Below, piece after piece: positions 13,166 through 62,900 of a DNA stretch of 64,000 nt. Source of the stretch: Stigmatella ashevillena. Its GTDB lineage: Bacteria > Myxococcota > Myxococcia > Myxococcales > Myxococcaceae. Where the stretch lies: contig NZ_JAQNDM010000002.1 of the NCBI RefSeq assembly GCF_028368975.1, positions 5,698,425 to 5,762,424 of the forward strand. Direction: 5' to 3'. A program made the position numbers and the translations under genes. The notes under the pieces were generated by a model. That model saw only the letters and a list, made by a program, of their open reading frames with translations. It did no database searches and had not been told where the DNA came from. Every line of letters begins with the position of its first letter. Positions within the stretch are counted from its first letter, which is position 1.

Positions 13166-13292
13166 TAGGACACGGATCGGTTTCCAGTTCCAGTAAATTC
13201 AAGCATTTAACCAGGACAGGGGATCGACAAGAGCCTCAAGATTTGATCAGGTGGCCGTCCTACTTGGCAAGTAACATCCCAGAGAGGTGACC

Positions 13293-36986: not shown

Positions 36987-37126
36987 GACAAAGGAACTTC
37001 CGAGGGTGTCGAGCGGTTGGAGAAACCGGGCAGCCCGCTTGGCCTGTGCTGGATCTCGGACGTACTGGCTGGGCCACAGCCTTCCAAGGGGCGCTCCTTC
37101 CTGGGAGTGTCTATCCTGCGCGGCGG

Positions 37127-44130: not shown

Positions 44131-45336
44131 TCACCCCATGGGCGGAGGGGCTCCCATCCAATAACTTTCCGCCCAGCTGATGAGGTTGCTCCAGGGCTGG
44201 CGCTGCTCGGGCGGCATCCGCTGTTGCAGGTGATACGCCTCGAGGGATTCCTTCCAACACACCCTCGCCACGTCTCGTGTCTGCTCAATGAGCGCATCGG
44301 GATCGCCCAGCAGGTTCATGACGAAATCAATGGAGTTGAGTGGGGGCCGGAAGCGGAAGAACCGGGTGGGCCCCAGCAGCTCCGAGGCATACCGGGCATC
44401 CGACTGGGCACCACCTTCGATGTAGGCCATCGCCGCCCGGAAGTTGTGCAAGAGCAGCCAGATCCAGCCGTAATTCATCTCGCGCATGGGCCGGCGATGG
44501 GGCTTCTTCCACAAGGATTCCAGGAACGTGCCCAGGGAGGAGTTCATCTCCGCGCATCTCTCGAACCACTTGGGAGACTGCGGCGTACAGCCCAGCGACA
44601 GGATGGAGATCCGGGAGAGGTACCGGGCCTCGGACAGGCCATCCGCCTCGGCGTCATGGCCGTCTTGATAGGCAAAATAGCCCAGCGCATCCGACAGGGC
44701 CGTCATGGCGGTGCTGTTGTTGGAGAGCGCTCCGTCCATCATCAGGTCATTCTTGTGCCCCCCCAGGTTGTTGCCAGAGCGGTAGATGGGCATGAGCACG
44801 GGGAACGCGGAGCTGGCCAGGGCCGCGTCGACAATCGTGGTGACGTAGTCCGCGTGCGGCGGAAACTGGTGGTAGGTGGCCTTGCGCCAGACCGTCGAGT
44901 CGAACGCCTCGATGACCACCATCCGCTCCAGCTCGCAGAGCTTCGCATCCCCGAAGGTCTCCTCCAGAACTTCCCGGATCGCCTCGCCGTCGTACATGGG
45001 GTAGAGCCCTGAAATCAGGCGGGCGATGTTGATGGCCTTCACCTTGAACTGACGGGTCATCCGCTCGTTGAACGCGATGCAGCCGTCGATGATGTCCAGG
45101 CAACCGGGCTGCTTGTTTCCCTCGCGATGCCGGGCCGACAGGGCATGCGCCAGGTACAGGCTGACGAAGGCGCCCGTGGAGGTGCCGGAGAACATCTGTG
45201 CGCGATCCACGAAGCCGGGATACCGGGCTTCGAGTTCACGGAGGACCCGGAGGGTGATGAGGGCGCTGGGACCGCCGTCGAATGAGATGACTCTCATCCG
45301 TTCCGGCGCACGTTTGTCATGATTGGACTCAGGCAT
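44131..45336 (-). CDS. Patatin-like phospholipase coupled to the PKS
   Basis: A 401-residue patatin-family acyl hydrolase. The nucleophile is in SGTSTGAF (Ser near residue 53) and the dyad Asp in MMDGALSNNS (near 201). The oxyanion segment reads FDGGPSAL, where patatins usually have DGGGxRG, so the loop Arg is missing. The ATG at 45336 overlaps the PKS end by 8 nt, so it is translated from the biosynthetic mRNA. In that context it may release, deacylate or transesterify the product, or be a membrane-active partner; none of this is shown. Confidence 0.8.
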   Translation of the reverse strand: MPESNHDKRAPERMRVISFDGGPSALITLRVLRELEARYPGFVDRAQMFSGTSTGAFVSLYLAHALSARHREGNKQPGCLDIIDGCIAFNERMTRQFKVKAINIARLISGLYPMYDGEAIREVLEETFGDAKLCELERMVVIEAFDSTVWRKATYHQFPPHADYVTTIVDAALASSAFPVLMPIYRSGNNLGGHKNDLMMDGALSNNSTAMTALSDALGYFAYQDGHDAEADGLSEARYLSRISILSLGCTPQSPKWFERCAEMNSSLGTFLESLWKKPHRRPMREMNYGWIWLLLHNFRAAMAYIEGGAQSDARYASELLGPTRFFRFRPPLNSIDFVMNLLGDPDALIEQTRDVARVCWKESLEAYHLQQRMPPEQRQPWSNLISWAESYWMGAPPPMG

Positions 45337-48300
45337 GGGACTCTCGAGCAATAGGGTGGGGACGCTTCGCCTGCGGGGACGACTGGGTTTGCGCCAGACA
45401 CGCGGAGAGCTTTCTGGCGAATATCTGGACATGCGGTGCTTTCAACAAGGAGAGGTGGTTGCCAGGAACCTCGTGGACGTCCACCCCGCCCGCCGCCAGC
45501 TTGTCCCAGCCCATCAGGGGATCCTTCCGCCCACGGGTGCTGCGCACCTCGTCGGTCGAGAAGAGCGTCACCCGGTGGGGATAGGCCTTGGGCTCGTACG
45601 CAAATGTCTCCCGCACGTGGATGAGGAAGAGCTGGAACATGGGAAGAATGGCCGCCTGGCGCAGGGCCAGCACCCGGGAGTCCGGCGGGACGAAGTTGGC
45701 CAGCGCCGAGCGGGCCAGGAACGTCTCCAGCATCCGGGGAGGAATCTTGAAGTTCCGGGGGAGGCCCTTGCCCTGGCGCTTGCGCGCGGCGTTCACCAGA
45801 TAGAAGTAGTCGTGCAGGTGCGGCCAGATGGAGCGGGCCACGCCCGTCGTCAGGAAGCGGGTCATCTCCAGGGGCGTGGGCCGGTGGCCCTTCAGCGGGG
45901 CCGGCTCGTCCACCATGACCAGCAGGCCAATCTGCTCATCCGCCGCCGTGAGCTGCTGGGCGATCTCGTAGGCGACCAGACACCCGAACGAGAAGCCTCC
46001 AATGAAGTAGGGGCCTCGCGGCTGGATGCTCCGCATCGCCTCGATGTAGTGCCGGGCCATGTCCTCGATGCACTCGTCGGGCGGAGACTCCCCGTCCAGG
46101 CCCATCGCCTGGAGCCCGTAGAAGGGCTGGTCCGGTCCGAGCTGGCGCGCCAGTTCGAAGTAGGGGAAGGCCACGCCCGCGGCCGGATGCACAAAGAACA
46201 GCGGCGGCTTCGTGCCCGCGGTCTGGAGGGGCACCAGCAGGGAGGATTCCTCGGGCCGGGCGGTTCCTTCCACCGCGCGGGCCAGCCGCTCCACCGTCAG
46301 GCCACTGAAGGCCGCGCCCGTGGGCATCGCCTGTCCCAGCTCCTGCTCCAGCCGGTCCACCAGCCGCAGGACGATGAGCGAGTCCCCGCCCAGCGCCACG
46401 AAGTCATCGTGAACGCCTACTGGCGCGACGCCGAGCAGCTCCTCGCAGATTCCGGCGATGCGCTGCTCCAGCCCTGTCCTCGGGGCCACGTACGCCACGG
46501 CCATGGGTGGCCGGGGGTGCGGTGCGCTCGAGGATGCCTCGACGGGCGCGGGCCGTGGGGGGGCCGGCGTCTCTTGCGTGAATGTCCGGGCCTCCCGGCG
46601 CCGGGCGAGCACGAGCCCATGGTCCACCTGCTCGCGCACCGCTTCGCTCCGAGGGAAGAGCTCCAGGGCTTCGAAGTCCAGGGGCTTCAGCGCCTCTTCC
46701 CAGCCCGACAACGGCAGCAGGGGCGAGTCCGTCCGCAGGCCGTCGTCGAAATACCACCACCCCTCGGCCAACCCCCAGGAGAGGACTTCCCAGCGCGACA
46801 GGCGCACCGCCTCCACCAATCCCAGCAACCCTCCGGGGCGCAAGAGCCTCCCAGCGTTCTGGAGGGATTGCCGCACGTCCCGCGTGGCGTGGACCACGTT
46901 GTAGGCGATGACGGCGTCGAACGTTCCCTCCTCGTAGCCTTGCTCCTGGGGCGCGCGGGAGATGTCGAGCACGCCAAACCGCATGACGCCGCCCAGCCCC
47001 CGCCGCGCCGCCTCTTGCCGCGCATCCTCGACGAACACCCGGCCGAGATCCGTGAAGTGGTACTCGATGCCGAAGTCCCGCAGCGCGGCCAACGCGGGCC
47101 AGGTCAGCAGCCCCTGTCCGCCGCCCAGCTCCAAGATCCGAAGCCGGCGGCCCTGCGTGGAGAGCGCGAGCCGTCGCAGGGCCTCCTGCAACACCTGAAG
47201 GTAGATGCGCTCGTGGCTGTGCTCTGCTGTCCGGGCCTTGCATTGCTGGAGGAACTGGGCGCTGCCCCCCGGGTAGAGCACGCTGATGGCCTCGACCTTG
47301 CCGCGCAGCGCCGGGTCATAGCTGCCCAGGCAATGCTCCACGAAGTCGAACAGGCCCTGGAAGCGGGGATGCGCGGCATCCAGGCGCTGGCGGAGCAGGA
47401 CGGGGGACTCCAACGCAGCGCCGTCCCGCAGGAACCGGAGTTCCTCGCCCTGGAGCTGGAGGATCCCATCCTCGGCCAGCCCCGCCACCATCGCGTCGAA
47501 GAGCCGGTGGAACCGGGGCTGGATGCCGAGCCGCTCCCTCAGGGCCCTCCGGTCGTGCGCCGCCCCCGGGTGCGTGGCGATGCCATTGGCCTGGAGGTAC
47601 GCGCACAAGTGGCTGGAGCAGAGCGCCTTGAGCCCTTCCACCAAACCCGGATGGCTCTCCAGGGACGGGATGCCCAGCTCCTGGCGCAGGGTCTCTTCCA
47701 GGGTGTCCAGCGAGGGCGCTTCCACGGCACGCCCCAGCCAGTGGCGCCTTCGCTCGAAGGGATAGGTGGGCAACGGCACGCGGTAGCGCCGCTGCCCGGC
47801 ATGGAGGGCGCTCCATTGAATCGGCACGCCCGCGGTCCAGAGCTGTCCCATCGCGCTCCAGACACCTTCCAGCGCGGACGCTCCCCGCTCCGGGGAGAAC
47901 GGCAGGCGGAGCAGCAGGTGGCCCTCGCGCTCCAGGGTGGCCAGCCCCTCCGTCAGGCTCACCGGCGGGCGCGGCGGCGAACTCCAGTGCTCCGGCTGGG
48001 TGGCCTGGGCCTCCGTCACCCGGGCGCCTGTTCTCGGGGACAGCAAAGGCAGACGCGGCGGCTTCGGATGCAGCCGTCTGACGTTCTGGGCGAGGGCCTC
48101 GTCCCGGGAGCCCTCCGGCACGCCCTGCATCCATCGGCCCCGCGCCACCACGAGGGCGAGGGCCTCTTCCAACGTGAACACCTCCGCCAGACAGGCCGCC
48201 ACGGCCTCGCCAGGGCCTTGGCCCAAGAGGGCCGCGGGTCTCACGCCCAACGCCATCCACCACCGGGCGAGCGCATGGCCCACCGTGAAGAGGGCCGCCT

Positions 48301-50098
48301 GCGCCAGAACGGGCTCCCACGTCTTCACATCCCCGGAGAACAACCCGGGCAGACGGAGTCCATGCTGGGACTGGAGCAGACGCGTGCACCGGTCCACCTC
48401 CTCGCGGAACACCGCCTCCGTGCGATAGAGCGCTTCGGCTTCCCCCAGATGCTCCAGGCCCTCGTCCGGAAAGAGGAAGGCCACGCTTCGCTCTGTCTCG
48501 GGCACGGCCTGGGTCGTTGTCCCCAGGGAGGCTTGAAGCGCCTGGAGGGCGGCCCCGGCATCGCGGCACGCCACGGCGAACCGGTGCGGGAAAGCCCGGC
48601 GCCCCACCTGGAGCGTGTAGGCCACGTCCGCGAGCTCTGCTTCGGGGTGGGCGTTCAGGTGCGCATGCAGCCGCTGCTTCATGGCGTCGAGCGCGGCATC
48701 CGTGCGCGCCGAGAGCACCAGGAGCTGGCAGGGCTTCGCGGGAGAGCCCGGCGTCCGGAGCGGCGCCTCTTCCAGCACGGCGTGGGCGTTGGTTCCGCCC
48801 ATGGCGAACGCGCTGACCCCCGCACGCCGGCGCGAGGCCCCCGCGCGCCACTCGGTGGCGGTGCTGTTGACGGTGAAGGGGCTGTCCTCCAGGCCGGTCT
48901 TCGGATCATTGCCCTGGAAGTGCAGGCTCGGAGGAAGGATCCGGTTCTCCAGCGCCAGGGTGGTCTTGATGAGGCTCGCCACCCCGGCGGCGGTGTTCAG
49001 GTGTCCGAAGTTGCTCTTCACCGACCCGATGGCGCAGAAGCCCTTCCCGCGCGGCGCGCGGCGAAAGGCCTGCTTCAGCGCGGCGATCTCGATGGCGTCT
49101 CCCAGGGCCGTGCCCGTCCCATGCGCCTCGATATAGGAGATGCTCCCGGGCTCCACGCCCGCGAGCGCCTGGGCCATCTGGATGACTTCCGCCTGCCCGT
49201 CGATGCTGGGGGCCGTGTAGCCCACCTTGGAGGAGCCGTCGTTGTTGACGGCCGCGCCGAGGATGACCGCTCGAATGGTGTCTCCATCGGCGAGCGCGTC
49301 CTCCAGCCGCTTGAGCACCACCAGGCCCACGCCATCCGCCGGGACGGTGCCCTGGGCCCGCGCATCGAAGGACCGGCAGTGTCCGTCCGGCGAGAGGATG
49401 TGGCCCTCTTGTGGCAAGTAGCCCGTGCCCAGCGGGAAGGCGATGGAGACGCCTCCGGCCAGGGCCATGTCACACTGGAAGTCGAGCAGCGCCTGGCAAG
49501 CGAGCTGCACCGTGACCAGCGAGGTGGAGCACGCCGTCTGCACGGTGATGACGGGACCCCGGAAGTTCAGCTTGTAGGCCACGCGCGTGGTCAGGTGATC
49601 CTTGTCGTTGCCCAGCACCGAGCCCAGGCTCTCCAGCAGCTCGCTTGTGTCCGACTGGGGCGCCACGTGGTGCAGCAGGTAGCCCGCGCCCCCCGCCCCC
49701 GCGAAGAGGCCGATGGGCCCGGGGAAGCGCCCCGCTTCGTACCCCGCATTCTCCAGCGCCTCCCAAGCGCACTCGAGGAAGAGGCGCTGCTGAGGATCAA
49801 TCAGCTCGGCTTCCCGGGGGCTGTACTGGAAGAAGCCGGCATCGAAGAGGTCCACGCCCTCCAGCAGTCCTCGGGCGGCCACGTACCGCGGGTTGCGCCG
49901 CTGGGACTCGCTGACCCCGGCGGCCTGGAGTTGGGCGTCCGTCAGGCGGGCAATGGACTCCACGCCCTCCCGCAGGTTCCGCCAGAAGGCGTCCACGTCC
50001 CGCGCGCCCGGGAAGCGGCCCGCCATGCCGATGATGGCGATTCCCGTCGGGACTTCCGCCTCCGAGACAGTGTCCGTCTCCACATCCGCCTTACTCAT
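45329..50098 (-). CDS. PKS terminal module KS-AT(degenerate)-MT-PCP-TE
   Basis: A 1589-residue protein. KS (about 18-445) is intact: TACSTS Cys190, EAHGTGT His326, NFGHL His366. The AT-like region (about 538-790) is shortened, and its GHSxGE elbow reads GQGPGE, so the nucleophile Ser is Gly and it should be inactive. The methyltransferase domain (about 800-1165) has LELGGGQG as SAM motif. A carrier domain follows (LGGDSL, Ser1240), and the thioesterase (1298-1575) has GGFSFG with Ser1370. There is no KR or DH. It starts at ATG 50098, overlapping the NRPS by 8 nt. An extender unit would need an AT acting in trans. Confidence 0.9.
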   Translation of the reverse strand: MSKADVETDTVSEAEVPTGIAIIGMAGRFPGARDVDAFWRNLREGVESIARLTDAQLQAAGVSESQRRNPRYVAARGLLEGVDLFDAGFFQYSPREAELIDPQQRLFLECAWEALENAGYEAGRFPGPIGLFAGAGGAGYLLHHVAPQSDTSELLESLGSVLGNDKDHLTTRVAYKLNFRGPVITVQTACSTSLVTVQLACQALLDFQCDMALAGGVSIAFPLGTGYLPQEGHILSPDGHCRSFDARAQGTVPADGVGLVVLKRLEDALADGDTIRAVILGAAVNNDGSSKVGYTAPSIDGQAEVIQMAQALAGVEPGSISYIEAHGTGTALGDAIEIAALKQAFRRAPRGKGFCAIGSVKSNFGHLNTAAGVASLIKTTLALENRILPPSLHFQGNDPKTGLEDSPFTVNSTATEWRAGASRRRAGVSAFAMGGTNAHAVLEEAPLRTPGSPAKPCQLLVLSARTDAALDAMKQRLHAHLNAHPEAELADVAYTLQVGRRAFPHRFAVACRDAGAALQALQASLGTTTQAVPETERSVAFLFPDEGLEHLGEAEALYRTEAVFREEVDRCTRLLQSQHGLRLPGLFSGDVKTWEPVLAQAALFTVGHALARWWMALGVRPAALLGQGPGEAVAACLAEVFTLEEALALVVARGRWMQGVPEGSRDEALAQNVRRLHPKPPRLPLLSPRTGARVTEAQATQPEHWSSPPRPPVSLTEGLATLEREGHLLLRLPFSPERGASALEGVWSAMGQLWTAGVPIQWSALHAGQRRYRVPLPTYPFERRRHWLGRAVEAPSLDTLEETLRQELGIPSLESHPGLVEGLKALCSSHLCAYLQANGIATHPGAAHDRRALRERLGIQPRFHRLFDAMVAGLAEDGILQLQGEELRFLRDGAALESPVLLRQRLDAAHPRFQGLFDFVEHCLGSYDPALRGKVEAISVLYPGGSAQFLQQCKARTAEHSHERIYLQVLQEALRRLALSTQGRRLRILELGGGQGLLTWPALAALRDFGIEYHFTDLGRVFVEDARQEAARRGLGGVMRFGVLDISRAPQEQGYEEGTFDAVIAYNVVHATRDVRQSLQNAGRLLRPGGLLGLVEAVRLSRWEVLSWGLAEGWWYFDDGLRTDSPLLPLSGWEEALKPLDFEALELFPRSEAVREQVDHGLVLARRREARTFTQETPAPPRPAPVEASSSAPHPRPPMAVAYVAPRTGLEQRIAGICEELLGVAPVGVHDDFVALGGDSLIVLRLVDRLEQELGQAMPTGAAFSGLTVERLARAVEGTARPEESSLLVPLQTAGTKPPLFFVHPAAGVAFPYFELARQLGPDQPFYGLQAMGLDGESPPDECIEDMARHYIEAMRSIQPRGPYFIGGFSFGCLVAYEIAQQLTAADEQIGLLVMVDEPAPLKGHRPTPLEMTRFLTTGVARSIWPHLHDYFYLVNAARKRQGKGLPRNFKIPPRMLETFLARSALANFVPPDSRVLALRQAAILPMFQLFLIHVRETFAYEPKAYPHRVTLFSTDEVRSTRGRKDPLMGWDKLAAGGVDVHEVPGNHLSLLKAPHVQIFARKLSACLAQTQSSPQAKRPHPIARESHA

Positions 50099-53000
50099 CC
50101 TGTTCGATCCTGCCCTTCACGGTGTGGCGCAGCCGGTGACGGCCCTGCGCTGAACGTTGCTTGCGAGCCCGCTCTTCGATCTGCTCGCTCCCAGAGGGAT
50201 GAGCCTCCTGCCCGGAGAGATATGCAGCCAGGGCCCTCACCGTGGGGTAGCGGAACAGCTCCAGCACGGGCAGCGGCCTTCCAAAGTCCTGCTCCAACCG
50301 GCTGCGCACCTGGGAGAGCAGCAACGAGTGTCCGCCCAGCTCGAAGAAGTTGTCGAGGGCGCCCACCTCCTCCACCCCGAGCGCCTCCTTCCAAATGGTG
50401 GCGATCTTCCGCTCCGCCTCGCCCCGGAGTGCCAGCCGCTCCTGGGCCGCCCGGGGCGCTCCGCCCTCCAGCGCCCGCAGCGCGCCCGTATCCACCGCTC
50501 CCGACGCGGTCCGGGGAATCCGTTCGAGCCGCTGGAGGACAGGAACGGGCGTGCGCACGCCCAGCACATCCCGGATCTCGGGCCCGGACGCTCCGGCGCT
50601 GGTGTCCTTCGCTGGCGAACCGGTGACGAAGGCACGCAGTTGGACTGCTGGCAGAGGCACCCCGTCCATGCGCACGCGGATGGGGAGGCTTCGGGCATCC
50701 AGGCCCACCAGCAGGTTCTCGGGCGGCTGTCCCAGTGCCACCCGGAGTGAATTCCATCCTCGACTCTGGGAGAGCGTCTGGTAGCCCCGGGCGTGGGCCA
50801 GGCGCTCCTCCGTCTCCGACAAGACGAGGCCCGTGCCCTCCCAGCGGCTCCAGGAGAAGCAGAAGTGACGGGAGCCCTCCACCCCTCGCCGCGCCTGGAC
50901 GAAGTGCTCCAGGAAGCGATTGGCGGCGGAATAGGCGGCCACGGAGAACCCTCCGAAGACACCATTCACCGAGGAGAACCCCACGAAGAAGGCCTCGGGC
51001 CTCGGGCCGAGGAGCTGCTCCAGCGCCCGCGTTCCTTCCACCTTGGGCCGCAGCACCGAGAGGAAGTGCTCCACCGTCTCCTCGGCCAGGACCCGCTCCT
51101 CGAGGACGCCGGCCAGATGGAGGACGCCCTCGAGCGGACGGCCCCACCGCCCCTCGGCGCGAGAGACCGCGTCCCCCACCGCCTCGGCATCACAGACATC
51201 CACCGCTTCGTAATGCACCTCGCCGCCGTGCTTCGCGGCCAGCACTCCCAGCTCCTTCCAGGCCTCGAGACGCGCCTCGGCCTGAGGGGCTTCCAGTGGC
51301 GTCCGGCCCAGGAGCAGCAACCGGGCTTGATACTGTTTGAGCAACCGGCGGGACAGCTCGATGCCCAGCGAGCCCAGTCCTCCGCTGAGCAGATACACGC
51401 CTCCAGAAACAAAGGGCGGTTTCCTCGAGCCCAGGGACGTGGGGTGAACTTGCTCCAGGCGCGGCACGAACCGCTTTCCCTGACGCCACGCCACCTCGCG
51501 ATCCCGGGGCAGGGTCTCCAGCTCGCGCAAAACCCAGCCCACCGCCTGCTCGGGAGGAACGGGGGGCAGGTCCACGTGCCGGGCATCCAGCCAGGGCACC
51601 TCCTGCGGAATCGTCTGAATCAACCCCAGCATCAGCGCCTTGTCCGCCTCCATCTCCTCACCGGGAGCGAGGGATTGCGCGTGATGGGAGACCACCTGGA
51701 GCCGGAGCGGTGTCGTGTCCGCCCACTGCCGGGAGAGCGCTTGTGACAAGAGCAACAGGCTGAGCACCCCCTCGCGCGGGGCTTCCTCCGGCGGAGCCGT
51801 CTGCCCACCGAAGGTCCACAGGTGCAGCACCTGCGCGAGCCGCACCCCTTCTTCCGCCAGAGCGGCCAGCAACCGTGGGTAGGCCTCCGCGTCCTCCGGC
51901 CTCAGGCAGAAGGCATCGGGCCCTGTCCTGACAAAGGCCGCTCCCGGCTCCACCGTGATGCACCGCCGACCCTCCTGGAGGAGCGCCTCACGCAACCGCG
52001 TGCCGAGCCCCTCGCCCTTCAGGAAGAGGAGACAGGCGCCCTCGGGCGCGGGCGCACGCGGGGAGGCCGCCTTCGGCCGCCACACCCTTCGAAAGAACCA
52101 CGCGGGCAGGGTGTTGGCATTGCCCTGGTGCAGATCCAGCGCCCGGAGCGTCTGGGCAAACCGCCCTTCCTCCAGGGCTTTCTTGAGCACCCCTCGCTGA
52201 ATCTTCCCGCTGGTCGTCCGGGGAAACGCTTCACGGGCAACGGGGATGATGAACGTGGGCGCGGCCCCCAGCCTCGCGGTGACCCGCATCCGCATCTCGG
52301 TGGCAATCCGAGCCCACCCGGCCAGCTCCGCCTCCTGGGGCACGAAGAAGATGGCGAACCCTTCGGTGCCCAGCGCCGAGACATCCACGCTGCACGCCCC
52401 GACATAGGTCGGCTCCACGCCGTCGATGTCGCGCACCATGTCTTCAATCTCATGGCAATACAGGTGCGAGCCCCGGACGATGATCATCTCCTTCTCGCGT
52501 CCGGTCAGCGTCAGCCGCCCCCGCAACAGGAAGCCGGAGTCCCCGGTGTTGAACCAGCCCCCGTCCACGAAGGCCTCCCGGTTCGCCGCCTCATTGTGGA
52601 GATAGCCCGGCGTCACGACGGCGCCCCGGGCCTGAACCCGCCCAATCACGCCCTCGGGCAAGAGCCGGTGGTCCGCGTCCACGATGCGCAATTGCACCCC
52701 CGGATTGGGGGGACCCACCTCCACGAACGTCACCGTGGAGGCATCCTCGGTGTCCTTCAACACCAGCGGCCCATTCAGTGAGGACTTGGCGACCCGGTGA
52801 ACCCCTCGCTCGGGATGAAAGTCGTTCTGGTAGGTGATGGCCGTGCACAGCTCCGCCATGCCGTACCCAGGTTGCATCACCTGTGTCCGGAGCCCGAAGG
52901 GCGCCAAGGCCTGGATGAACTCTCGAATAACGGGGGCTGTCACCTGCTCCCCCGCGTTCATCAGCCGCTTGAGCCTGTCGAGCCGCCAGGAGCGATGCGG

Positions 53001-56000
53001 CGCTTGCCGCACGGCATCACTGACCAGTTTGAAACCAAAGTTGGGAGACCAGCTGTAGCTGACACGGTGCTTCTCCATCAAATCCAGCCAGCGCAGTGGA
53101 TCACCCAAGACCCACTCGGTGCTGGAATGAACTTGGGCGTGCCCCAGATACGTCACGCCGAGGTGGTAGATCAGCGTCGGTGCCACATGATCGAACGGAA
53201 GCCAGTTAAATGAGACGTCGTCTGGGATATAGCCGTTGACCCGTGCCTCGGCATGGAAATGGTGAATGAGCCCCCAGTGGGTCTCTTGGATGCATTTGGG
53301 CACCCCCGTGCTGCCCGAGCTGAGCTGGAGAAAAGCCACCTCTTCCGGCTTTGCCGGGTGAAGCGCCTCGGCGGGAGGATGGCCTTGGAGTTCCTCCACA
53401 CAGAGCAGACGCACGTCTTCCATGGGAAACCGCGTGCGCACGCCTTCCAACGCTTGCACCAATCGGGCACTGGTCAGCACGGGCGGGTGGCCGAGCAATT
53501 CCCAGATATTGTGAAGTTTCACGGCCACGGCATTGTCGGGTTCGTACGCTGGTGCAATCGCCACCGTGACCGGCGTCATCCCTCCCAGCAGACACGCCCA
53601 GAGGCTGGTGCAGTGCTCGCGCAGAGAGCCGAGTTGCAGGATGACCCGCGCGCCCGGCCCCAGGCCGCTGGCGCGCAAGCCGGTCAGCACACACCGGGCC
53701 TCGTGCAACAATTCGGGATAGCGCTGGTATTGCTCCACCCCCTCCGCGCCGACGTACGTGATTCCCCTCTCTGGGGCCTCCACCGCCGTGCGCACCAGCG
53801 CCTCGACGAGCGTCCGCGGCGCACCGGGGGGGAACTCCAGCGGCCCGCCATCGCTGAAGGCCAGGAGGGCCAGGGCCCCGGGCTCCCAGCGCGGCGCCTC
53901 CTCGGCCTCCACCGGGGACAACGCCTCACTTCCAGAAACGTCTGTCTGGAATCCAGGCAAAACATCCGAAAGGTGCAGAAAAGAGGCAGGCTCCTGCCAG
54001 GGAAGGAGGGTCACCGCGACCTCGCCGGTGTCCGGCTGCCGGTGCAGTTGCTCCTCCCACTGCCGGGAAATCTCCTCATCGAGGAGCGGCAGTTGCCGCA
54101 ATGCCTCTTCATCCACCTGGCCGGTGGAGGTCCGCGGCAGGGCATGGAGCGCGACGAGGCCGTCCGGTGTCAAAGAGGGCGGAAGCTCCAGCTGCGCGGG
54201 TGACACGGGCGTGCGGCTACTGGAAACCACGTAGGCCACGCGCAACGTCTGGGACTGCGGAGAGCGCCGCAGCCGCACCGCTCCCTCCTCCACCCACGGG
54301 AGCGCCACCAGGGCCGCTTCCATTTCGGACGCGCTCGCGCCCTCGGACGCGCTCCAGCGGCTGGGCCGCTCGTACTGGGAAAGGCGAAGCTCCGGTGCGC
54401 GGGAGGCCTCCTCCAGGATGGCCTTGAAATCTCGGAGCAGCCGGTCCGCGGTGTCGGCCTCGAACAGCTCGGTGCTGTAGAGGAGTGTCCCCTCCCACCG
54501 CCCGTCCCGCTCCCACACATTCCAGGTGAGCTCGAACGGCGCCGTCTGGATATCGGCTTCCGAGAGGCGCAGCGTCAGCCCGCCGCGCGCCACCGCCTCG
54601 GGGGGAGGGCGCTGGGGCGCGAACATCACCTGGAACAAGGGCTGATGGCCTCCGGTCCGGTCCGGCCGGAGCGTCTCCACCAGCTTCTCGAAGGGAATGT
54701 CCTGGTGGGCATACGCCGCCAAGCTTCGCTCGCGCACGCGGGAGAGCAGCTCGCGGAAGGAGGGATTGCCGTGGAGCTGAACGCGCAGCACCAGGGTGTT
54801 GACGAAGAAGCCAATCATCCCCTCCAGCTCGCTGCGGTCACGCCCCGCGACAGGGCTCCCCACCAGCACCTCCTCGCTGCCCGTGCAGCGCTTGAGCAGG
54901 ATGCCGAGCCCCGCGAGCAAAGCCATGACGGGGGTGGCGCCTTCGGCCCGGGCGAACGCCTCCAGGGCCTGGGATGTCTCGGTGGGGATCTGGAACGCCA
55001 CGGCCGCGCCCCGGAACGACGGTGTCACCGGTCTCGGCTTGTCCGCCGGAAGGTCCAAGGAGCGCGGGGCGCCTTCGAGCTGCTCCCGCCAGAAGGCCAG
55101 CCCGCGCTCCAGCACCGGCCCCCGCATCCACTGCTGCTGCCAGAGCGTGTAGTCCGCGTACTGGACGGGCAGTCCCGGCAAGGGCGCAGGCTCACCGTGC
55201 AGGAAGGCCTCGTAGAGGGCCGTCAGGTCCCGGAGCAGCACCTCCATGGACGCGCCATCACAGACGGCGTGGTGGATGGCCAGCAGCAGCGCATGCTCGG
55301 TCTCGCTCCACGTGACGAGGTGGGCCCGGAGCAAGGGCCCCTCGCCCAGGGCGAAGGGCCGCGCCAGCTCTGTCCGGACACGCTCCGCCAGCCGGGCCTC
55401 CCGCTCGCCCTCCGAGAGCGTGCGCCCATCGAACACCGTCCAGGGCACGGGGGCAGGAGGTGCAATGCGTTGCACCGGCTCGCTTCCCTCAAAGGGGAAG
55501 GTGGTCCGCAAGGTTTCATGGCGGAGGACCAGCGCCTCCAAGCCCTGCTTCAGCGCGGAGACCTCCAGCGGGCCGCTGAGCCGGAGAATGAAGGGCAGGT
55601 TGTAGACGGCTGTCCCGGGGGTGAGCTGCTCCAGGAACCACAACCGCTGCTGGGCGAAGGAGAGCGGCAGCCGCTCCGGGCGCGCCGCCGACACGAGGGG
55701 AGGCACTCCCCGGGGGGCCTGCCTCAAGGCCTCGGTGCGCTCGGCCAGATGGGCGAGGGTGCAGCCCTGGAGGAGCTCATGCGGGGACAAGTCCACCTCC
55801 AGGACTTCCCTCACACGCGCGGCCATCGCCGCCGCCCTCAAGGAGTCTCCGCCCAGTTCCAGGAAGTCATCCTCGAGCCCCACGGGGGACACGCCAAGCA
55901 CCTGGCCCCACACGCTCTCCAGCGTGCACTGGAGCGGCGTGAGGGGAGGGCGGAAGGGGACCGCCAGCGCGGGGCGGGCCTTTCCCGGCGCGGGGAGGGC

Positions 56001-57485
56001 CTGCCGATCCACCTTGCCGTTGGGCGAGAGGGGCAGGGCGGGCAACTCCACGAACACCGCGGGCACCATGTACTCCGGCAGCGCTTCGCGGACGAGGCGG
56101 CGCCACCCCGAGGGGCCCGGCGTGCTTCCCGGCCGGACGGCGAGGTAGGCCACCAACCGGGGCGCGCCGGGCACCTCCTCGCGGCCCACCACCACCACGG
56201 CTCGCACCGCTGGGTGCTGGGCCAGCACGTGCTCCACCTCTCCCGGCTCCACCCGGTGGCCCCGGATCTTCACCTGATGGTCCCGCCGACCGAGGTAGTC
56301 CAGGTTCCCATCCGGCAACCACCGGGCCGAGTCTCCCGTCCGGTACAAGCGCTCTCCTGTCTCCGGGTGGGGAACGAAGCGCTCCGCCGTCAGCTCTGGC
56401 CGGTGGAGATACCCCCTGGCAACTCCCACACCGCCCAGGTACAGCTCTCCCACCGCTCCCTCGGCGACAGGCCGGAGCTGATCATCCAGCACGTGCGCGC
56501 TCATCCCCCGCATCGGACGGCCGATCGGGGGCGGACGCGCACCGCCGGTTCCCTCGAAGAGCGTGGCGTGAACGGTGGCCTCGGTCGGCCCATAGGCATT
56601 GAAGAAGCGCCGGCCGGGGCTCCACCGCGCGGCGACGCTCGCGGAGCACTCCTCTCCCGTGGAGACCAGCACCTGGAGCGCGGGCAGCTCCGCATCCGGC
56701 AGGACGGCGAGCACGGAGGGCGGCAGCGCCGCGTGGGTGATGGCGCGCTCGCGCAGCAGTGCCAGCAACGCGGGCCCGGGCAGCCGCGCCTCCGGCGGCA
56801 TCAGGTGAAGCGTTCCCCCTGCCCACCCGGCCGCCAGGATTTCCCAGAGCGAGACATCGAAGCAGAGCGAGGCGTATTGCAAGACATGGCTGTCCCCTCC
56901 CAGGCCAAATGTCTGCCCAAGGGATTCCGCCAGGTTGAGCAAGCTTCGGTGCTCCACCAGGACGCCCTTGGGCCGCCCCGTGGAGCCCGAGGTGTAGAGC
57001 ACATACGCCAGGTGCTCCGGGCCCGCGAGCGGCTCGGGGCGGGAGGAGGGCACCTCTGCCAGCCCCTCTTCCTCGTCGAGGCGAAGGACGCGCCGGGAGT
57101 CCAGGGGCAACACCCCCTCCACGGCCCGCCGGGTCAGCAGCACGGAGATGCGGGCGTCCTCCAGCATGAAGGCCAGACGCGGGCGGGGATAGACAGGGTC
57201 CAGCGGCACATAGGCCCCCCCTGCCTTGAGAATCCCAAGCAGGCCCACCATCATTTCCAGACATCGCCCGGTGCACAGCCCCACCCGGCTCTCCGGCCCC
57301 ACGCCCCACGCCCGCAGGGCATGGGCCACCCGGTTGGCACGCTCATCCAATTGGCGGTAGGTGAGCGAGCCCTGCTCCGAGTGAACGGCGATCGCCTCCG
57401 GGCGTGTGTCTGCCTGGAACTCGAACAACGCGTGGATGAACGAGGCGGAGGTCTGCCGTTGCCCGCCGCCGTGGGCCGATGTCAT
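50091..57485 (-). CDS. NRPS A-PCP-C-PsiAsub-AL-KR-PsiAsub-PCP
   Basis: A 2464-residue protein starting at ATG 57485 with CAGGAG six bases upstream. Adenylation 1 (about 15-510; LYTSGSTGRPKG, NAYGPTEAT, NGKVDR); PCP1 (LGGDSLR). Condensation (about 600-1030; HHAVCDG). An A-subdomain-like piece (about 1053-1133, PRTSTGQVDEEAL, catalytic Lys replaced by Gln). A PksJ-type acyl-AMP ligase (about 1225-1785; LQLSSGSTGVPK, MQPGYGMAEL, TTSGKIQRG). KR (about 1815-2270; SGGLGSLG, FSSVNG, YSAAN). A second A-subdomain piece (about 2275-2340, PRTASGAVDTGAL, no Lys) and PCP2 (LGGHSL). No leading C domain, so A1-PCP1 starts the chain. The 8-nt overlap couples it to the PKS. Confidence 0.9.
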   Translation of the reverse strand: MTSAHGGGQRQTSASFIHALFEFQADTRPEAIAVHSEQGSLTYRQLDERANRVAHALRAWGVGPESRVGLCTGRCLEMMVGLLGILKAGGAYVPLDPVYPRPRLAFMLEDARISVLLTRRAVEGVLPLDSRRVLRLDEEEGLAEVPSSRPEPLAGPEHLAYVLYTSGSTGRPKGVLVEHRSLLNLAESLGQTFGLGGDSHVLQYASLCFDVSLWEILAAGWAGGTLHLMPPEARLPGPALLALLRERAITHAALPPSVLAVLPDAELPALQVLVSTGEECSASVAARWSPGRRFFNAYGPTEATVHATLFEGTGGARPPPIGRPMRGMSAHVLDDQLRPVAEGAVGELYLGGVGVARGYLHRPELTAERFVPHPETGERLYRTGDSARWLPDGNLDYLGRRDHQVKIRGHRVEPGEVEHVLAQHPAVRAVVVVGREEVPGAPRLVAYLAVRPGSTPGPSGWRRLVREALPEYMVPAVFVELPALPLSPNGKVDRQALPAPGKARPALAVPFRPPLTPLQCTLESVWGQVLGVSPVGLEDDFLELGGDSLRAAAMAARVREVLEVDLSPHELLQGCTLAHLAERTEALRQAPRGVPPLVSAARPERLPLSFAQQRLWFLEQLTPGTAVYNLPFILRLSGPLEVSALKQGLEALVLRHETLRTTFPFEGSEPVQRIAPPAPVPWTVFDGRTLSEGEREARLAERVRTELARPFALGEGPLLRAHLVTWSETEHALLLAIHHAVCDGASMEVLLRDLTALYEAFLHGEPAPLPGLPVQYADYTLWQQQWMRGPVLERGLAFWREQLEGAPRSLDLPADKPRPVTPSFRGAAVAFQIPTETSQALEAFARAEGATPVMALLAGLGILLKRCTGSEEVLVGSPVAGRDRSELEGMIGFFVNTLVLRVQLHGNPSFRELLSRVRERSLAAYAHQDIPFEKLVETLRPDRTGGHQPLFQVMFAPQRPPPEAVARGGLTLRLSEADIQTAPFELTWNVWERDGRWEGTLLYSTELFEADTADRLLRDFKAILEEASRAPELRLSQYERPSRWSASEGASASEMEAALVALPWVEEGAVRLRRSPQSQTLRVAYVVSSSRTPVSPAQLELPPSLTPDGLVALHALPRTSTGQVDEEALRQLPLLDEEISRQWEEQLHRQPDTGEVAVTLLPWQEPASFLHLSDVLPGFQTDVSGSEALSPVEAEEAPRWEPGALALLAFSDGGPLEFPPGAPRTLVEALVRTAVEAPERGITYVGAEGVEQYQRYPELLHEARCVLTGLRASGLGPGARVILQLGSLREHCTSLWACLLGGMTPVTVAIAPAYEPDNAVAVKLHNIWELLGHPPVLTSARLVQALEGVRTRFPMEDVRLLCVEELQGHPPAEALHPAKPEEVAFLQLSSGSTGVPKCIQETHWGLIHHFHAEARVNGYIPDDVSFNWLPFDHVAPTLIYHLGVTYLGHAQVHSSTEWVLGDPLRWLDLMEKHRVSYSWSPNFGFKLVSDAVRQAPHRSWRLDRLKRLMNAGEQVTAPVIREFIQALAPFGLRTQVMQPGYGMAELCTAITYQNDFHPERGVHRVAKSSLNGPLVLKDTEDASTVTFVEVGPPNPGVQLRIVDADHRLLPEGVIGRVQARGAVVTPGYLHNEAANREAFVDGGWFNTGDSGFLLRGRLTLTGREKEMIIVRGSHLYCHEIEDMVRDIDGVEPTYVGACSVDVSALGTEGFAIFFVPQEAELAGWARIATEMRMRVTARLGAAPTFIIPVAREAFPRTTSGKIQRGVLKKALEEGRFAQTLRALDLHQGNANTLPAWFFRRVWRPKAASPRAPAPEGACLLFLKGEGLGTRLREALLQEGRRCITVEPGAAFVRTGPDAFCLRPEDAEAYPRLLAALAEEGVRLAQVLHLWTFGGQTAPPEEAPREGVLSLLLLSQALSRQWADTTPLRLQVVSHHAQSLAPGEEMEADKALMLGLIQTIPQEVPWLDARHVDLPPVPPEQAVGWVLRELETLPRDREVAWRQGKRFVPRLEQVHPTSLGSRKPPFVSGGVYLLSGGLGSLGIELSRRLLKQYQARLLLLGRTPLEAPQAEARLEAWKELGVLAAKHGGEVHYEAVDVCDAEAVGDAVSRAEGRWGRPLEGVLHLAGVLEERVLAEETVEHFLSVLRPKVEGTRALEQLLGPRPEAFFVGFSSVNGVFGGFSVAAYSAANRFLEHFVQARRGVEGSRHFCFSWSRWEGTGLVLSETEERLAHARGYQTLSQSRGWNSLRVALGQPPENLLVGLDARSLPIRVRMDGVPLPAVQLRAFVTGSPAKDTSAGASGPEIRDVLGVRTPVPVLQRLERIPRTASGAVDTGALRALEGGAPRAAQERLALRGEAERKIATIWKEALGVEEVGALDNFFELGGHSLLLSQVRSRLEQDFGRPLPVLELFRYPTVRALAAYLSGQEAHPSGSEQIEERARKQRSAQGRHRLRHTVKGRIEQDE

Positions 57486-57648: not shown

Positions 57649-58494
57649 TCAATGCCGCGAGTAAGAGAGAATCATGTACCGCAGCAGGCCCAGGCGGGTG
57701 ACGAGCTCGAGCGTCAGCAGGCCCGACAGGGACAGGGCCGCCTGCGTCCCGAACCTGCGGGTCATCAGCCGCCGCACCACCGTGTACGTGGGCAGCGTGT
57801 TGGCGGTGATGTCCTGCTCGGCCAGGGGGGCAAAGCCCGTCCGCCGTGCCAGGGCGCGGTAGCGCTCCAGCGGATAGCGGATGTCCACGTGGCCAGAGAT
57901 GCGGCGCTGATAGGCGCCAAAGAGCACGTCTTGCGCGGCCAGCACCGGAGCGAAGGCGCGCCTGGGAACGAAATCCGAGACGATCAGACGGCCCCCGGGC
58001 CGGAGCACGCGGCGGGCCTCCTCGAAGAAACGCTGGCGGTCCGGGAAATGAAAGATGCACTCAACGGCAAGCACGGCATCGAACGAGGCGTCTGGAAAGG
58101 GCATGGCACACGCGTCCCCTTCCACGAATGACACCGTATTGCCAGGACTTGCACGCACCTGTTCCCTGGCACGCTCCAATTGCCCTGCATCAATGTTCAA
58201 GCCTGTCAGTGAAACACCTTGGAAGCGGGCATCCAGCGCGGCGGTGGTTCCTCCAAAGCCACACCCGGCATCCAGCACGCTCATGCCATCGCGCAGGCCT
58301 CCCGCCTCGAACAATCGATGGCACATGCGGTCCGCGGCGGCTTCAAAGTCAGGCAACGTCCCATCTCCGTCTTGCGCGCGCTCCCACCAGCCCCAGTGAA
58401 TGTGGCGGCCGAAGAGACGGCTCAAGTCGAAATCACCTCCGCGCAGATGCTCCAGGATGACCCGGGCATAGGGGGGAGCATGCACTGGAGGCAT
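57649..58494 (-). CDS. SAM-dependent methyltransferase
   Basis: A 281-residue class I methyltransferase of the small-molecule O/N/C-methylating type. SAM motif VLDAGCGFGGTTAALD (about 73-88), acidic end of strand 2 in LNIDAGQLE, motif II around FDAVLAVECIFHFPD and motif III LRPGGRLIVSDF. It resembles RebM and sterol/polyketide methyltransferases. It is first in the minus-strand cluster, 163 nt before the NRPS start, and is probably in the same transcription unit. Its target is likely the assembly-line product. Confidence 0.8.
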   Translation of the reverse strand: MPPVHAPPYARVILEHLRGGDFDLSRLFGRHIHWGWWERAQDGDGTLPDFEAAADRMCHRLFEAGGLRDGMSVLDAGCGFGGTTAALDARFQGVSLTGLNIDAGQLERAREQVRASPGNTVSFVEGDACAMPFPDASFDAVLAVECIFHFPDRQRFFEEARRVLRPGGRLIVSDFVPRRAFAPVLAAQDVLFGAYQRRISGHVDIRYPLERYRALARRTGFAPLAEQDITANTLPTYTVVRRLMTRRFGTQAALSLSGLLTLELVTRLGLLRYMILSYSRH

Positions 58495-58626: not shown

Positions 58627-59967
58627 ATGCGTCTCCTTCCAGGGCCAGGCATACCGTCCGCTCTTCAGATTGCGCGGTACCGCTTCCAGCCCTTTGAGTT
58701 TCTCGACGACTGCGCGAGCCGCTATGGAGATCTCTTCACCGTCCGTTTCCCTATCCTGGGACCGCTTGTCTGTGCGAGCCGTCCGGAAAGCATTCGCCGC
58801 ATCTTCGCGGCCAGCGCCGAGGAATTGCGGCTGGGTGAGGCCAATGACATTTTCAGGCCCCTGTTTGGCGAGCGCTCCATTTCGGTGCTCGACGGCCCCA
58901 GCCACTTGAAATTGCGCCGTCTGTCCGTGCCCTTGTTCCAGGGTGAGCAGTCCTATGCCTGGACGGAGATGATCCTCGAGGTGGCCGCCCGGAGGACCCG
59001 CCGCTGGCGTCCCGGCCAGCACCTGCGGCTGCGTGAGGAGATGGAAGCGTTGACGCTGGAGGTCATCCTCCGGGCCCTGCTGGGGTTGGAGGATCCCGCC
59101 CAGTTGAGGCTCGTCAGCCGCCATGCTCGGACCATGGTCCAATGGTCGGCATCTCCTTTTGGCGCATTGCTCATGGTGCCCGCGCTCCGGCGTGACTTGG
59201 GCCCGCTCACGCCCTGGAAGGGCTACCACCGGGATCTCTCCACGCTGGCGGAGTGGGTCATGACCCAGGCCGCGCAGCGTCGGCGCGCGGGGGATGCCGC
59301 CGACCGGAGGGATCTGCTCTCACGCCTCATGGAGGGGGGCGCGGGCCTGAGCGACGAGGAGCTGAAGGATCTGCTCCTCATGCTGCTCTTCGCCGGGTAC
59401 GAGACGACGGCGACCTCCCTGTGCTGGGCATTCGAGGCGCTCCTGTCCCACCCCGGGGAGCGAACATGGGTGGAGCGGGAGTTGGAGGACGTCACCGGAG
59501 GCGGGCCGCTGGAGGCCGGGCACCTGGAGCACCTCGCGCGTCTGGACTCCGCCATCAAGGAGGTGCTGCGCCTGTACCCGGTGGTGCCCATCCTCGGCAT
59601 GGCCCGGCGCGCGGTGCGCCCCTTCGAGCTTCAGGGGGTGACGTTTCCGGCGGGCACCAAGCTCGTGCCCACCAGCTACCTGGCCCAGCGCCGGGCCGAC
59701 GTCTATCCAGAGCCCACGCTGTTTCGCGCGGGGCGGTTCCTGGACAGCAAGCCGGATCCCTCCGCGTGGTTGCCTTTCGGAGGGGGGCTGCGGCGCTGCG
59801 TGGGGCTGCCCTTCGCGCTGCACGAGCTGAAGGCAGTGCTGGCCCACGTGCTCAGCCAGACGCGGCTGCGCCTGACGCGCGGCTCCCCGGCCCGCGCCTC
59901 CCTGGACGGCATCACGGTGGGGCCGCAGGGAGGTACGCCGGTCGTCGTGGAGTCCGTCAGGGCCTAA
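58627..59967 (+). CDS. Cytochrome P450
   Basis: A 446-residue soluble P450. I-helix AGYETTATS (the acid-alcohol pair), K-helix EVLRLYP (ExxR), PERF-like FRAGRF, and haem loop FGGGLRRCVG with the Cys ligand near residue 393. The sequence style is close to class-IV-like bacterial P450s of the CYP4/CYP110 type that hydroxylate fatty or polyketide chains. No ferredoxin gene is nearby. It diverges from the methyltransferase-NRPS operon and probably decorates its product. Its stop codon overlaps that of the convergent sensor. Confidence 0.85.
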   Translation: MRLLPGPGIPSALQIARYRFQPFEFLDDCASRYGDLFTVRFPILGPLVCASRPESIRRIFAASAEELRLGEANDIFRPLFGERSISVLDGPSHLKLRRLSVPLFQGEQSYAWTEMILEVAARRTRRWRPGQHLRLREEMEALTLEVILRALLGLEDPAQLRLVSRHARTMVQWSASPFGALLMVPALRRDLGPLTPWKGYHRDLSTLAEWVMTQAAQRRRAGDAADRRDLLSRLMEGGAGLSDEELKDLLLMLLFAGYETTATSLCWAFEALLSHPGERTWVERELEDVTGGGPLEAGHLEHLARLDSAIKEVLRLYPVVPILGMARRAVRPFELQGVTFPAGTKLVPTSYLAQRRADVYPEPTLFRAGRFLDSKPDPSAWLPFGGGLRRCVGLPFALHELKAVLAHVLSQTRLRLTRGSPARASLDGITVGPQGGTPVVVESVRA

Positions 59968-62900
59968 TCGCTCTCACCCGGCGAAGGCGTGGACGAGGGC
60001 GAGCGCCGGGGCAGGGTGACCACGAACTCGGTGTACTTCCACTCCTCGGTCGTGAAGTCCAAGGTGCCGCCGTGGCCCTGGACGATGATGTCATGGCCGA
60101 TGGCCAGCCCCAGGCCGGTGCCCTGGCCGGTGGGCTTGCTGGTGAAGAAGGGATTGAAAATCTTTCCGCGGATGCTCTCCGGGATTCCCGTGCCGTTGTC
60201 CCGGATGCGGATCTCCACGCCGTTGCCGAGGTTGCGCGTGCGCACGGTGAGCTCGGGGATGAACCCCGCCTCGCCCTTCTTGCGCCGCGCCTCGATGGCA
60301 TAGCAGGCGTTGTTCACCAGGTTGAGCAGCGCGCGGCCCAGCGCCTGGGGCATGACCTCCACCGGCGGCAACTCGCCGTCGAACTGCGTCTGGACGGCCA
60401 CCTCGAAGGAGGGGTGCACCATGCGGAACTCCTGGCGCGCCAGCTCCACGGAGTGTTTCAGCAAGTCGTGCAGATCCACCTCCGCCATCGGCCCGCCCCG
60501 GCCGGTGCGAGACAGCTCCAGCATCGAGTGAACAATGGAGTCCGCGCGGCTGCTGTGCTCGCTGATGTGCGCCGCGTTCTCCTTCAGCGAGGTGGAGATC
60601 TCCGTCAGGACATCCACATCGCGCGGGTTCTTCAGCGTCTGGGGATCCGCCAGCTGCTCTTGCAGCTCCTGGGCGAGGTCCACGGAGAGCAGCGCGAAGT
60701 TCTTGATGAAGTTGAGGGGGTTCTTCAGCTCGTGGGCCACCCCCGAGGTGAGCGCGCCCAGCGAGGCGAGCTTCTCCTTCATGACGAGCTGCGCCTGCAT
60801 CTGCTTGAGCTGCTTGAGCGTATGGGACAGCTCCTCGTTGCTCGCGCGCAGCTCCCGCGTGCGCTCGCGCACCCGCTGATCCAGCGTGTCGTACAGCCGG
60901 GCGTTCTCCAGCGAGATGGCGGCCTGGGCCGACAGCACCTCGAGCAGCCGGCACCGCTTGGGGGTGAAGGCGCCGGCCACCAGCCGGTTCTCCAGGTAGA
61001 GCGTGCCCACGGGCTGCTTCTGCTTCATGACCTGAAGGCACAGCACCGAGCGGGGCCGTTGGCTCGCGATGTAGGAATCCGTCTGGAAGTGCCCCTCGCG
61101 CGTGGCCTCGCGCAGCACCACGCGCTCTCCGGTGCGCTCCACGTACCGGACGATGGTGGCGGGCATGTCCGCGGGCATCTCCTGGGCGGCGTTGCGGACC
61201 TTCACCTCCGTGGCGCCGTCCTCGCCCAGTTGGCCTTCGACGACCAGGGGCACATCCCCCTTGAGCAGCAGCAGCCCGCGCTGGGCGCCCGCGTTCTCCA
61301 GGCTGATGCGCATCAACTTCTCGAGCAGCTCCTGGAGGACGATCTCCCCGGAGATGGCCTGCGAGGCCTTGAGCACCGTGGACAAGTCCAGCGTCTCTCC
61401 GGCCGCGCTGGCGCTCTGCGCGGCGGCCATGTCCGCCCCCAGCAGCTCCGGGTACTGCCGCTCCAGGGCAGACACTTTGCCGCGGGCGCCCCAGCGGCCA
61501 TAGGCATGGTGGGCATCCTCCAGGTACGTGCGCGCCACGCGCTTGCGGCCCTGGGCCAGGTAGAACCGCGCCGCCAACTCGTTGGCCAGCGCCTCGTCCT
61601 GGGAATGTTCCGCCCGCGCCGCCGCCTCGATGGCCTCGTCATACAGCGCCATCGCCTGGCCCTCCGCGCCCGACAGGCGGGCCTGCTCGGCCAGGAGCAA
61701 CAGGTGCTTCTGCTGGAAGTTCTCGGCGCACAGCTTCCGGTAGCCGCGGAACTTCTCGATGTTGTCCGCGAGCACCTTTTCGTACGCGGCCTTCTCCTCG
61801 GCGGTGGCCTTCGCGTAGAGCGCCGCCAGCAACAGGCCCTGGTAGAACTGGAACTCCGCCTGGGTAATCCACCCGTATGCCAAGCCGAGCCGCGGCTCCG
61901 CCTTGCGCAGGTAGTCCTGGGCCCCCACCAGGTCGTCCATCAGGAAGGCCGCGCGCATCCACATGATGTACGCGGTGCTCAGCACGGTGGGGTTCTCCAA
62001 CTTCTCCACCAGCTCGTCCTCGCTCTGCCACGCCAAGCCGTCCGAGGGCGGGGACGCGTCCATCAGCCGCAGGATGCAGCGCTGCGACACGCGAATTTGG
62101 TGGATGGCCCAGAGGTACTGGGCCCCGCTGCGGCGGTAGAAGTCCACGTGCCGCTGCAGCCGCGCGTGCTGCGTCTCCAGGTCCTCCTTGCCGAGCTGTC
62201 CCAGCACCCCGAAGTGCAGCGAGCACTGTGAGGCCCAGACGAGCATGTTGTTGGCCAGGCAGCCCTGGAAGGCCTGATCCAGCAAGCGCATGGACGTCTC
62301 GATGGGACGGCACCACGGGTTGGGATAGGCGGCGAAGATGAACTGCACCAGGGGAGGCTCGCTCCGGCCGCCCACCTTCTCGGCCAGCGTCAGCGCCAGC
62401 CGCCCGTACTCGTGCGCCTGGGCATAGTCTCCCGTCGCGGGCCCATGCCCCAGGGCATACATGACGTAGGAGGTGGCCGAGCCCGGCGCATGGCCATGCA
62501 CGCGCGCGCGGTTGATCGCCATGGGCGACATCAAGGCGAACAGGTGCTGGTGGGTATAGGCGGCGTAGCTCAGCGCCTGGGAGAAGAGCAGGATGCGCGC
62601 CCGCTCCAGCGGATCCGTCGCCTCGGGCAGCTCGGCCAGACTGCCGATGGACCGCGCGGCCCGGTCCGCCTCCAGCTTCGCCTTCTCCTGGAGGGTGGCG
62701 GCGGCGATGGCCTCCTTGTCTTCCGGAATCTCGAGCCCCAGCACCTTCATCCCCTCCAGCGCGGGCTGGATGACCTGGATGTACTGGCCGCGGCTCACGA
62801 ACAGCTCGATCATCAGGTGGTAGATTTCGTGCTTCTGCTCCGGCGACCTCGCGCGCTCCAGCACCAGCCGGAAGCCCTTCTCCGCGTCCTCGAACTGCCC

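Follow-up and report, generated by a model that had tools for sequence, protein, structure and literature searches.

In StsA, a cereulide-type system that uses alpha-ketoisocaproate, the A-KR unit is reportedly flanked by a split pseudo-Asub, an architecture that we trace here through alignments to 6ulw. StsA (PDB 6ULW/6ULX) has been described as an initiation module with the order A-KR-T, in which I306, replacing the amino-binding Asp, and G414-M415, where amino-acid domains have Pro, form the keto-acid contacts; the same source lists McyG as phenylalanine-activating (PMC11253843). Longer lines are described for antimycin, where AntC-AntD follow the order A-T-C-A-KR-T and then KS-AT-ACP-TE (PMC3869250), and for JBIR-06, whose SmlC line has the same order and where the MT of the JBIR-06/neoantimycin PKS is reported to give a dimethyl unit from malonyl-CoA (PMC6117356). 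The account of the didemnin pathway that we draw on reports it as being without any AT domain, a precedent for trans loading (PMC5577590), and Nostoc sp. ATCC 53789 is described as a cryptophycin producer (PMC6835634).

The window, by which we mean the whole stretch of 64,000 nucleotides analyzed here, comes from a genome of 10.95 Mb in two contigs and carries an NRPS gene followed by a PKS gene (Table 1). The antimycin-type domain order is found in the window, its PKS including an MT, like that of JBIR-06, and an AT remnant. Unlike the antimycin line, the window has no starter C domain, as the protein starts with A1, and its AT has decayed; no 3-formamidosalicylate genes were found among the neighbors scanned. 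The module of interest resembles StsA in its A-KR-T order, the class of its A domain, its contact residues, and the pieces before A and after KR. It differs from StsA in being preceded by a C domain and in having an additional Asub-like element, here called psiAsub1, which could not fit into the 6ulw chain, as only 18 residues lie ahead of the aligned part of that chain.

Two further relatives share this extra element. A module of Nostoc ATCC 53789 (L041), a presumed CrpD judging by its neighbors, as genes for a P450, a dioxygenase, and an aspartate decarboxylase lie downstream, has the same order, C-psiAsub1-psiAsub2N-A-KR-psiAsub2C-T, at 35% identity to the window, but its neighbor genes are different and no PKS follows the module in the stretch covered. 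An A-KR module with psiAsub1 on the Tistrella mobilis plasmid pTM3 (L045), a putative member of the didemnin line, is 43% identical across half of the query and is followed, in the stretch covered, by an NRPS, in contrast to the PKS of the window.

Domain organization of the NRPS

Pfam finds AMP-binding in two stretches of the NRPS, one Condensation domain, one KR preceded by its structural part, and two PP-binding stretches. The A1 specificity code, with positions placed by eye, reads DVWAVTAVHK in the window, a code shared by three orthologues and differing in the other three; to our knowledge it fits no described code with confidence, and we know of no threonine code that it matches. The KR lies between A and T with its motifs intact, including the GGLGSLG cofactor motif and the Lys, Ser, and Tyr positions.

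Table 1 Features of the NRPS-PKS locus, in window coordinates
Feature	Position	Strand	Basis
NRPS, A1-T1-C-psiAsub1-psiAsub2N-A(keto)-KR-psiAsub2C-T2, 2481 aa	50091..57536	-	Single ORF, Pfam, profile comparisons
A1, ordinary amino-acid adenylation domain, residues 37-507	56016..57428	-	Pfam, tree
Condensation domain, residues 622-1058, HHAVCDG motif intact	54363..55673	-	Pfam, motif
psiAsub1, residues 1068-1146, C-terminal TGQVDEEAL; additional Asub, almost complete, catalytic Lys lacking	54099..54335	-	Profile-profile, fold model
psiAsub2 N-half, residues 1153-1196; counterpart of N-terminal piece of StsA 6ulw	53949..54080	-	Profile alignment
Predicted keto-acid adenylation domain, residues 1225-1800, own Asub with Lys (TTSGKIQR)	52137..53864	-	PDB scores, alignment, tree
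KR, structural and catalytic parts, residues 1834-2232	50841..52037	-	Pfam, motifs
psiAsub2 C-half, residues 2292-2362, contains SGAVDTGAL	50451..50663	-	Profile-profile
Carrier domain T2, residues 2376-2439	50220..50411	-	Pfam
PKS, KS-AT remnant-MT-ACP-TE, 8 bp overlap with NRPS	45329..50098	-	Pfam, motifs
Decayed AT, about residues 538-774	47777..48487	-	Partial Pfam match, orthologue alignment
SAM methyltransferase, directly upstream of NRPS	57649..58494	-	Orthologue beside NRPS in 3/6 relatives
Cytochrome P450, divergent	58627..59967	+	Orthologue beside cluster in 2/6 relatives; L032 stretch ended short of it

The ligase groups with A-KR adenylation domains

The original prediction had set the central ligase apart from keto-acid A domains as being of the FAAL/PksJ type. 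A PDB search with residues 1055-2460 returned StsA 6ulw as the best match, at 724 bits over 1218 residues that take in ligase, KR, and carrier, with the McyG A-T protein at 452 bits and StsA_A at 448 bits. The next ligases were 7r7f ('Polyketide synthase', 127 bits) and 3pbk ('Fatty Acyl-Adenylate Ligase', 121 bits), the latter being the best FAAL-named entry. Of PksJ, the KR stretch alone was among the matches (4j1q, 112 bits). When aligned with StsA, the window has Val at the position of I306 and Gly-Met at G414-M415. Gly-Met is present in all 15 aligned A-KR modules, and the I306 position is held by Val in 13 of them and by Gly in two, with Asp in none.

A maximum-likelihood tree of 34 ligases unites the A-KR ligases supplied (20/20) in a single clade with support 100/100, to which neither the eight acyl ligases from the genome of the window nor the six amino-acid A domains belong. 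The A-KR rows comprise the window, 12 of the 15 loci from the phylum search, and seven of the eight fetched plasmid loci, while StsA was compared by score outside the tree; the CrpD-like row is the sole one with a product known to us. L012, L021, and L022 were left out (L009 and the window are one and the same). So were H7 and H10, which score near H8 and H9 and come from the same genera, and L047 (Planktothrix), which enters neither the tree nor any count. A scan of genome contigs with a single protein gave seven loci, none of which proved on inspection to be an A-KR module, and a scan of viral contigs gave two loci that match the ligase or carrier only. L017-L020 make up a clade of their own in the tree; together with L021, and spread over five genomes of the family, they represent a second and diverged A-KR-T group that has no upstream C domain and has degenerate Asub-like pieces.

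By these measures the ligase is not a FAAL, since it reaches 448 bits with StsA_A but 121 with 3pbk and lies outside the eight acyl-ligase rows, nor is it an ordinary amino-acid A domain, as it lacks both Asp at 235 and GPTE at A5 and falls outside the amino-acid clade. It groups instead with the A domains of A-KR modules and has a hydrophobic residue in place of Asp and Met in place of the A5 Pro. Grouping with standard amino-acid A domains, the outcome that the original prediction had named as counting against it, did not occur, since the ligase stands apart from these in the tree. Its contention that the ligase is unlike a keto-acid A domain is not borne out by the StsA scores, the signature residues, and the A-KR clade, and we rejected 'FAAL/PksJ type' as an alternative to a keto-acid A domain on the same grounds. 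Because the solved keto-acid A domain of StsA is itself of this ligase type, the contrast falls away, and the 'distinct route' to an alpha-hydroxy acid that had been built on it is left unsupported.

Three Asub-like elements in the NRPS

TGQVDEEAL (residues 1138-1146) and SGAVDTGAL (residues 2345-2353) had been proposed as marking two adenylation-subdomain-like pieces, lacking the A10 lysine, that flank the ligase and KR about 1,150 residues apart and complement each other as halves of one subdomain. The Pfam stretches and motif positions place them on either side of ligase and KR, and the lysine is indeed replaced, by Gln in TGQVDEEAL and by Ala in SGAVDTGAL. Their spacing is 1207 residues, against the value of about 1,150 given. 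Profile-profile comparison and shuffles bear out the likeness of both pieces to Asub beyond chance. Against a reference profile of 11 ordinary Asubs (A1 of the window and 10 segments of the same genome; 102 positions; hhalign), the TGQVDEEAL piece aligned to positions 15-96 with a probability of 98.1%, and the SGAVDTGAL piece to positions 42-102 with 78.7% from 14 modules and 92.9% from the eight modules that were chosen for keeping the motif. Other module sets gave 99.5% and 93.7%, respectively. In column-shuffle controls for these latter sets, none of 300 shuffles reached the score of the TGQVDEEAL piece, while three of 300 reached that of the SGAVDTGAL piece, all three scoring above 130 over 10-34 columns and, in our view, artefacts of shuffled gap columns; the next best shuffle scored 18.0 against 39.3. 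With single sequences, the PDB search gave weak Asub matches for the TGQVDEEAL piece (best E 0.00089, GrsA) and nothing useful for the SGAVDTGAL piece, and it was profiles that settled both; StsA 6ulw was absent among the best 60 of 152 matches in one profile search of the pieces.

On the Asub profile the two pieces share positions, one covering 15-96 and the other 42-102, so that they are not simple halves of a single subdomain. The first match of a profile built from seven N-terminal regions (A3) was StsA 6ulw (E 1.9e-21, chain 19-165), in an alignment that starts at profile position 103, right past TGQVDEEAL, and extends into the start of the ligase. The corresponding piece of the window is DEEISRQWEEQL...LHLSDVLPGF, which occupies residues 1153-1196. 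Because the StsA-type N-half maps just after it, the TGQVDEEAL element is an additional, nearly complete Asub, and thus belongs, as judged from these alignments, to a separate third Asub-like element, psiAsub1.

Built from 15 modules, the N-half profile matched Asub positions 16-43 locally (E 0.0025), a match that is weak alone at a probability of 11.9% and falls to 0.2% when forced end to end, while its local score was reached by none of 300 shuffles. The C-terminal piece from 14 modules matched positions 42-96 (93.7%). On the Asub, the N-half (16-43) runs to where the C-half (from 42) starts, as expected of a split subdomain, and the alignment with 6ulw from KR to carrier covers the C-terminal piece, weakly so within the piece itself. 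Sequence pieces of a split pseudo-Asub are thus present before A and after KR, and the two halves, which may fold jointly, presumably join A-KR to T2 as in StsA; a structure model of residues 1153-2352, which hold both halves, had a mean pLDDT of 45.9 (5-row alignment). In this respect the earlier suggestion of a split pseudo-Asub around A-KR, hinting at hydroxy-acid incorporation, stands at the level of sequence, but with residues 1153-1196 rather than the TGQVDEEAL piece as its N-terminal part. For modules of this kind, the parsing is corrected from two Asub-like elements to three.

Fold and distribution of psiAsub1

In a model of residues 1056-1200 (mean pLDDT 61.4), the first ~96 residues adopt an Asub fold, with Z scores of 13.2 to benzoate-CoA ligase and 12.1 to GrsA, although this fold is partly built in because the 3-row alignment included two true Asubs of the window. 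Among the best 50 matches in either fold search with this model, 6ulw was absent.

Using the Asub profile at E < 0.01, psiAsub1 was detected in every A-KR module whose ORF also encodes an upstream C domain (10/10: the window, L010-L016, L041, and L045), with carriers in the phylum of the window, a cyanobacterium, and an alphaproteobacterium. Among 11 A-KR modules without an upstream C domain, it was detected in four (L024, L040, L042, and, as a partial match, L023) and not found at this threshold in seven (L017-L020, L043, L044, and L046). These counts leave out L021, which has no clear N-terminal piece in frame, and L022, which is cut by a contig end.

Loss of the PKS acyltransferase

The AT of the window has GQGPGE in place of GHSxGE, has thereby lost its active-site serine, and is 100 residues shorter than the ATs of L035 and L036. 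Across seven orthologues (the window and L032-L037), the serine is lost and 98-143 residues are missing, relative to L035 and L036, in five; the motif is GQGPGE in the window and its near relatives L032-L034 and GRGVGE in L037. L035 and L036 have an intact AT that keeps GHSLGE and HAFH. The motifs of KS, MT, ACP, and TE are intact in all seven. Loading of the PKS in trans would be the simplest reading of the AT loss. Further AT matches exist elsewhere in the genome, seven of which lie in frames of fewer than 450 residues. The history of the AT may have involved two losses, or one loss and a regain. With loss in five of seven and the other PKS motifs kept, the locus provides a compact example of the passage from a cis-AT module to trans supply. 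A keyword search of the open-access literature on AT loss returned nothing.

Proposed working of the line and alternatives

As defined by its domain order, kinship, signature residues, three Asub-like elements, and lost AT, the line very probably contains an elongating StsA-type keto-acid (depsipeptide) module within an antimycin/JBIR-06-like NRPS-PKS line, in which a keto acid would be activated, reduced, and esterified. From sequence comparison we infer its substrates, ester formation, methylation, mode of release, and product as follows. A1 would load an amino acid onto T1, and the second A domain would adenylate an alpha-keto acid and load it onto T2, where the KR would reduce it to the alpha-hydroxy acid. 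The C domain would then join the aminoacyl group of T1 to the hydroxyl as an ester, the KS would add a two-carbon unit, the MT would methylate, and the TE would release the product. The split pseudo-Asub would link A-KR to T2, with psiAsub1, as an extra Lys-less Asub, lying between C and the A-KR unit.

The Gly-Met signature and the scores are not by themselves proof of a keto acid, because McyG has Gly-Met as well and matches at 452 bits. This likeness is what speaks for a McyG-like ligase that activates an alpha-hydroxy or aryl-propanoid acid directly, with the KR acting elsewhere or idle. We nevertheless consider such direct activation improbable, as the McyG construct 4r0m is an A-T protein without KR, whereas the match to StsA continues through KR, C-half, and carrier, and the intact KR motifs argue against an idle KR. 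The arrangement first proposed, with the TGQVDEEAL and SGAVDTGAL pieces as the halves of one split pseudo-Asub around a FAAL/PksJ-type ligase and a separate hydroxy-acid route, accounts for the Asub-like character of both pieces and for their positions around ligase and KR; it is nonetheless highly improbable given their overlap on the Asub profile, the match of the StsA N-terminal piece to a different stretch, and the place of the ligase in the A-KR clade with a far higher score to StsA_A than to any FAAL-named entry.

For psiAsub1, we tentatively propose, at somewhat less than even chances, that it is a third, Lys-less folded Asub of elongating keto-acid modules, placed between C and the split pseudo-Asub and conserved in no fewer than three phyla, where it would serve C or A-KR as a structural partner, here working with a PKS that shed its AT and is loaded in trans. 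If so, StsA and other initiation modules could do without psiAsub1. That it is instead a mere unfolded remnant or linker without a role seems unlikely to us: it does lack the Lys and a core domain, and it goes undetected in most A-KR modules lacking an upstream C (with L023 giving a partial match only), but its presence in all C-preceded modules of such distant bacteria and its modeling as an Asub, though from an alignment that held two true Asubs, argue for more than a remnant. Taken as a whole, the machine is of an established type; the parts that merit closer study are a supernumerary, leftover domain and a partner domain that is broken. With it, the keto-acid NRPS-PKS lines gain one of probable myxobacterial origin, on which keyword searches of the open-access literature, at the level of titles, found no obvious paper, and its third Asub-like element is a target for structural work that the solved StsA initiation module would miss.

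Genomic neighborhood

The NRPS and PKS genes are adjacent in six genomes of the same family. A patatin-like phospholipase ORF (44131-45432, minus strand) shares about 100 bp with the end of the PKS ORF; it adjoins the PKS in three of the six relatives, and a fourth has a distant copy (27% identity), inverted, nearby. The cluster is bordered on both sides by large sensor kinases, a Ser/Thr kinase-AAA-GAF-histidine kinase-type ATPase at 37046-42406 (plus strand) and an AAA-GAF-histidine kinase at 59964-64000 (minus strand) that extends beyond the window. A DDE transposase gene (13287-14819, plus strand) lies within the lower-GC part of the window.
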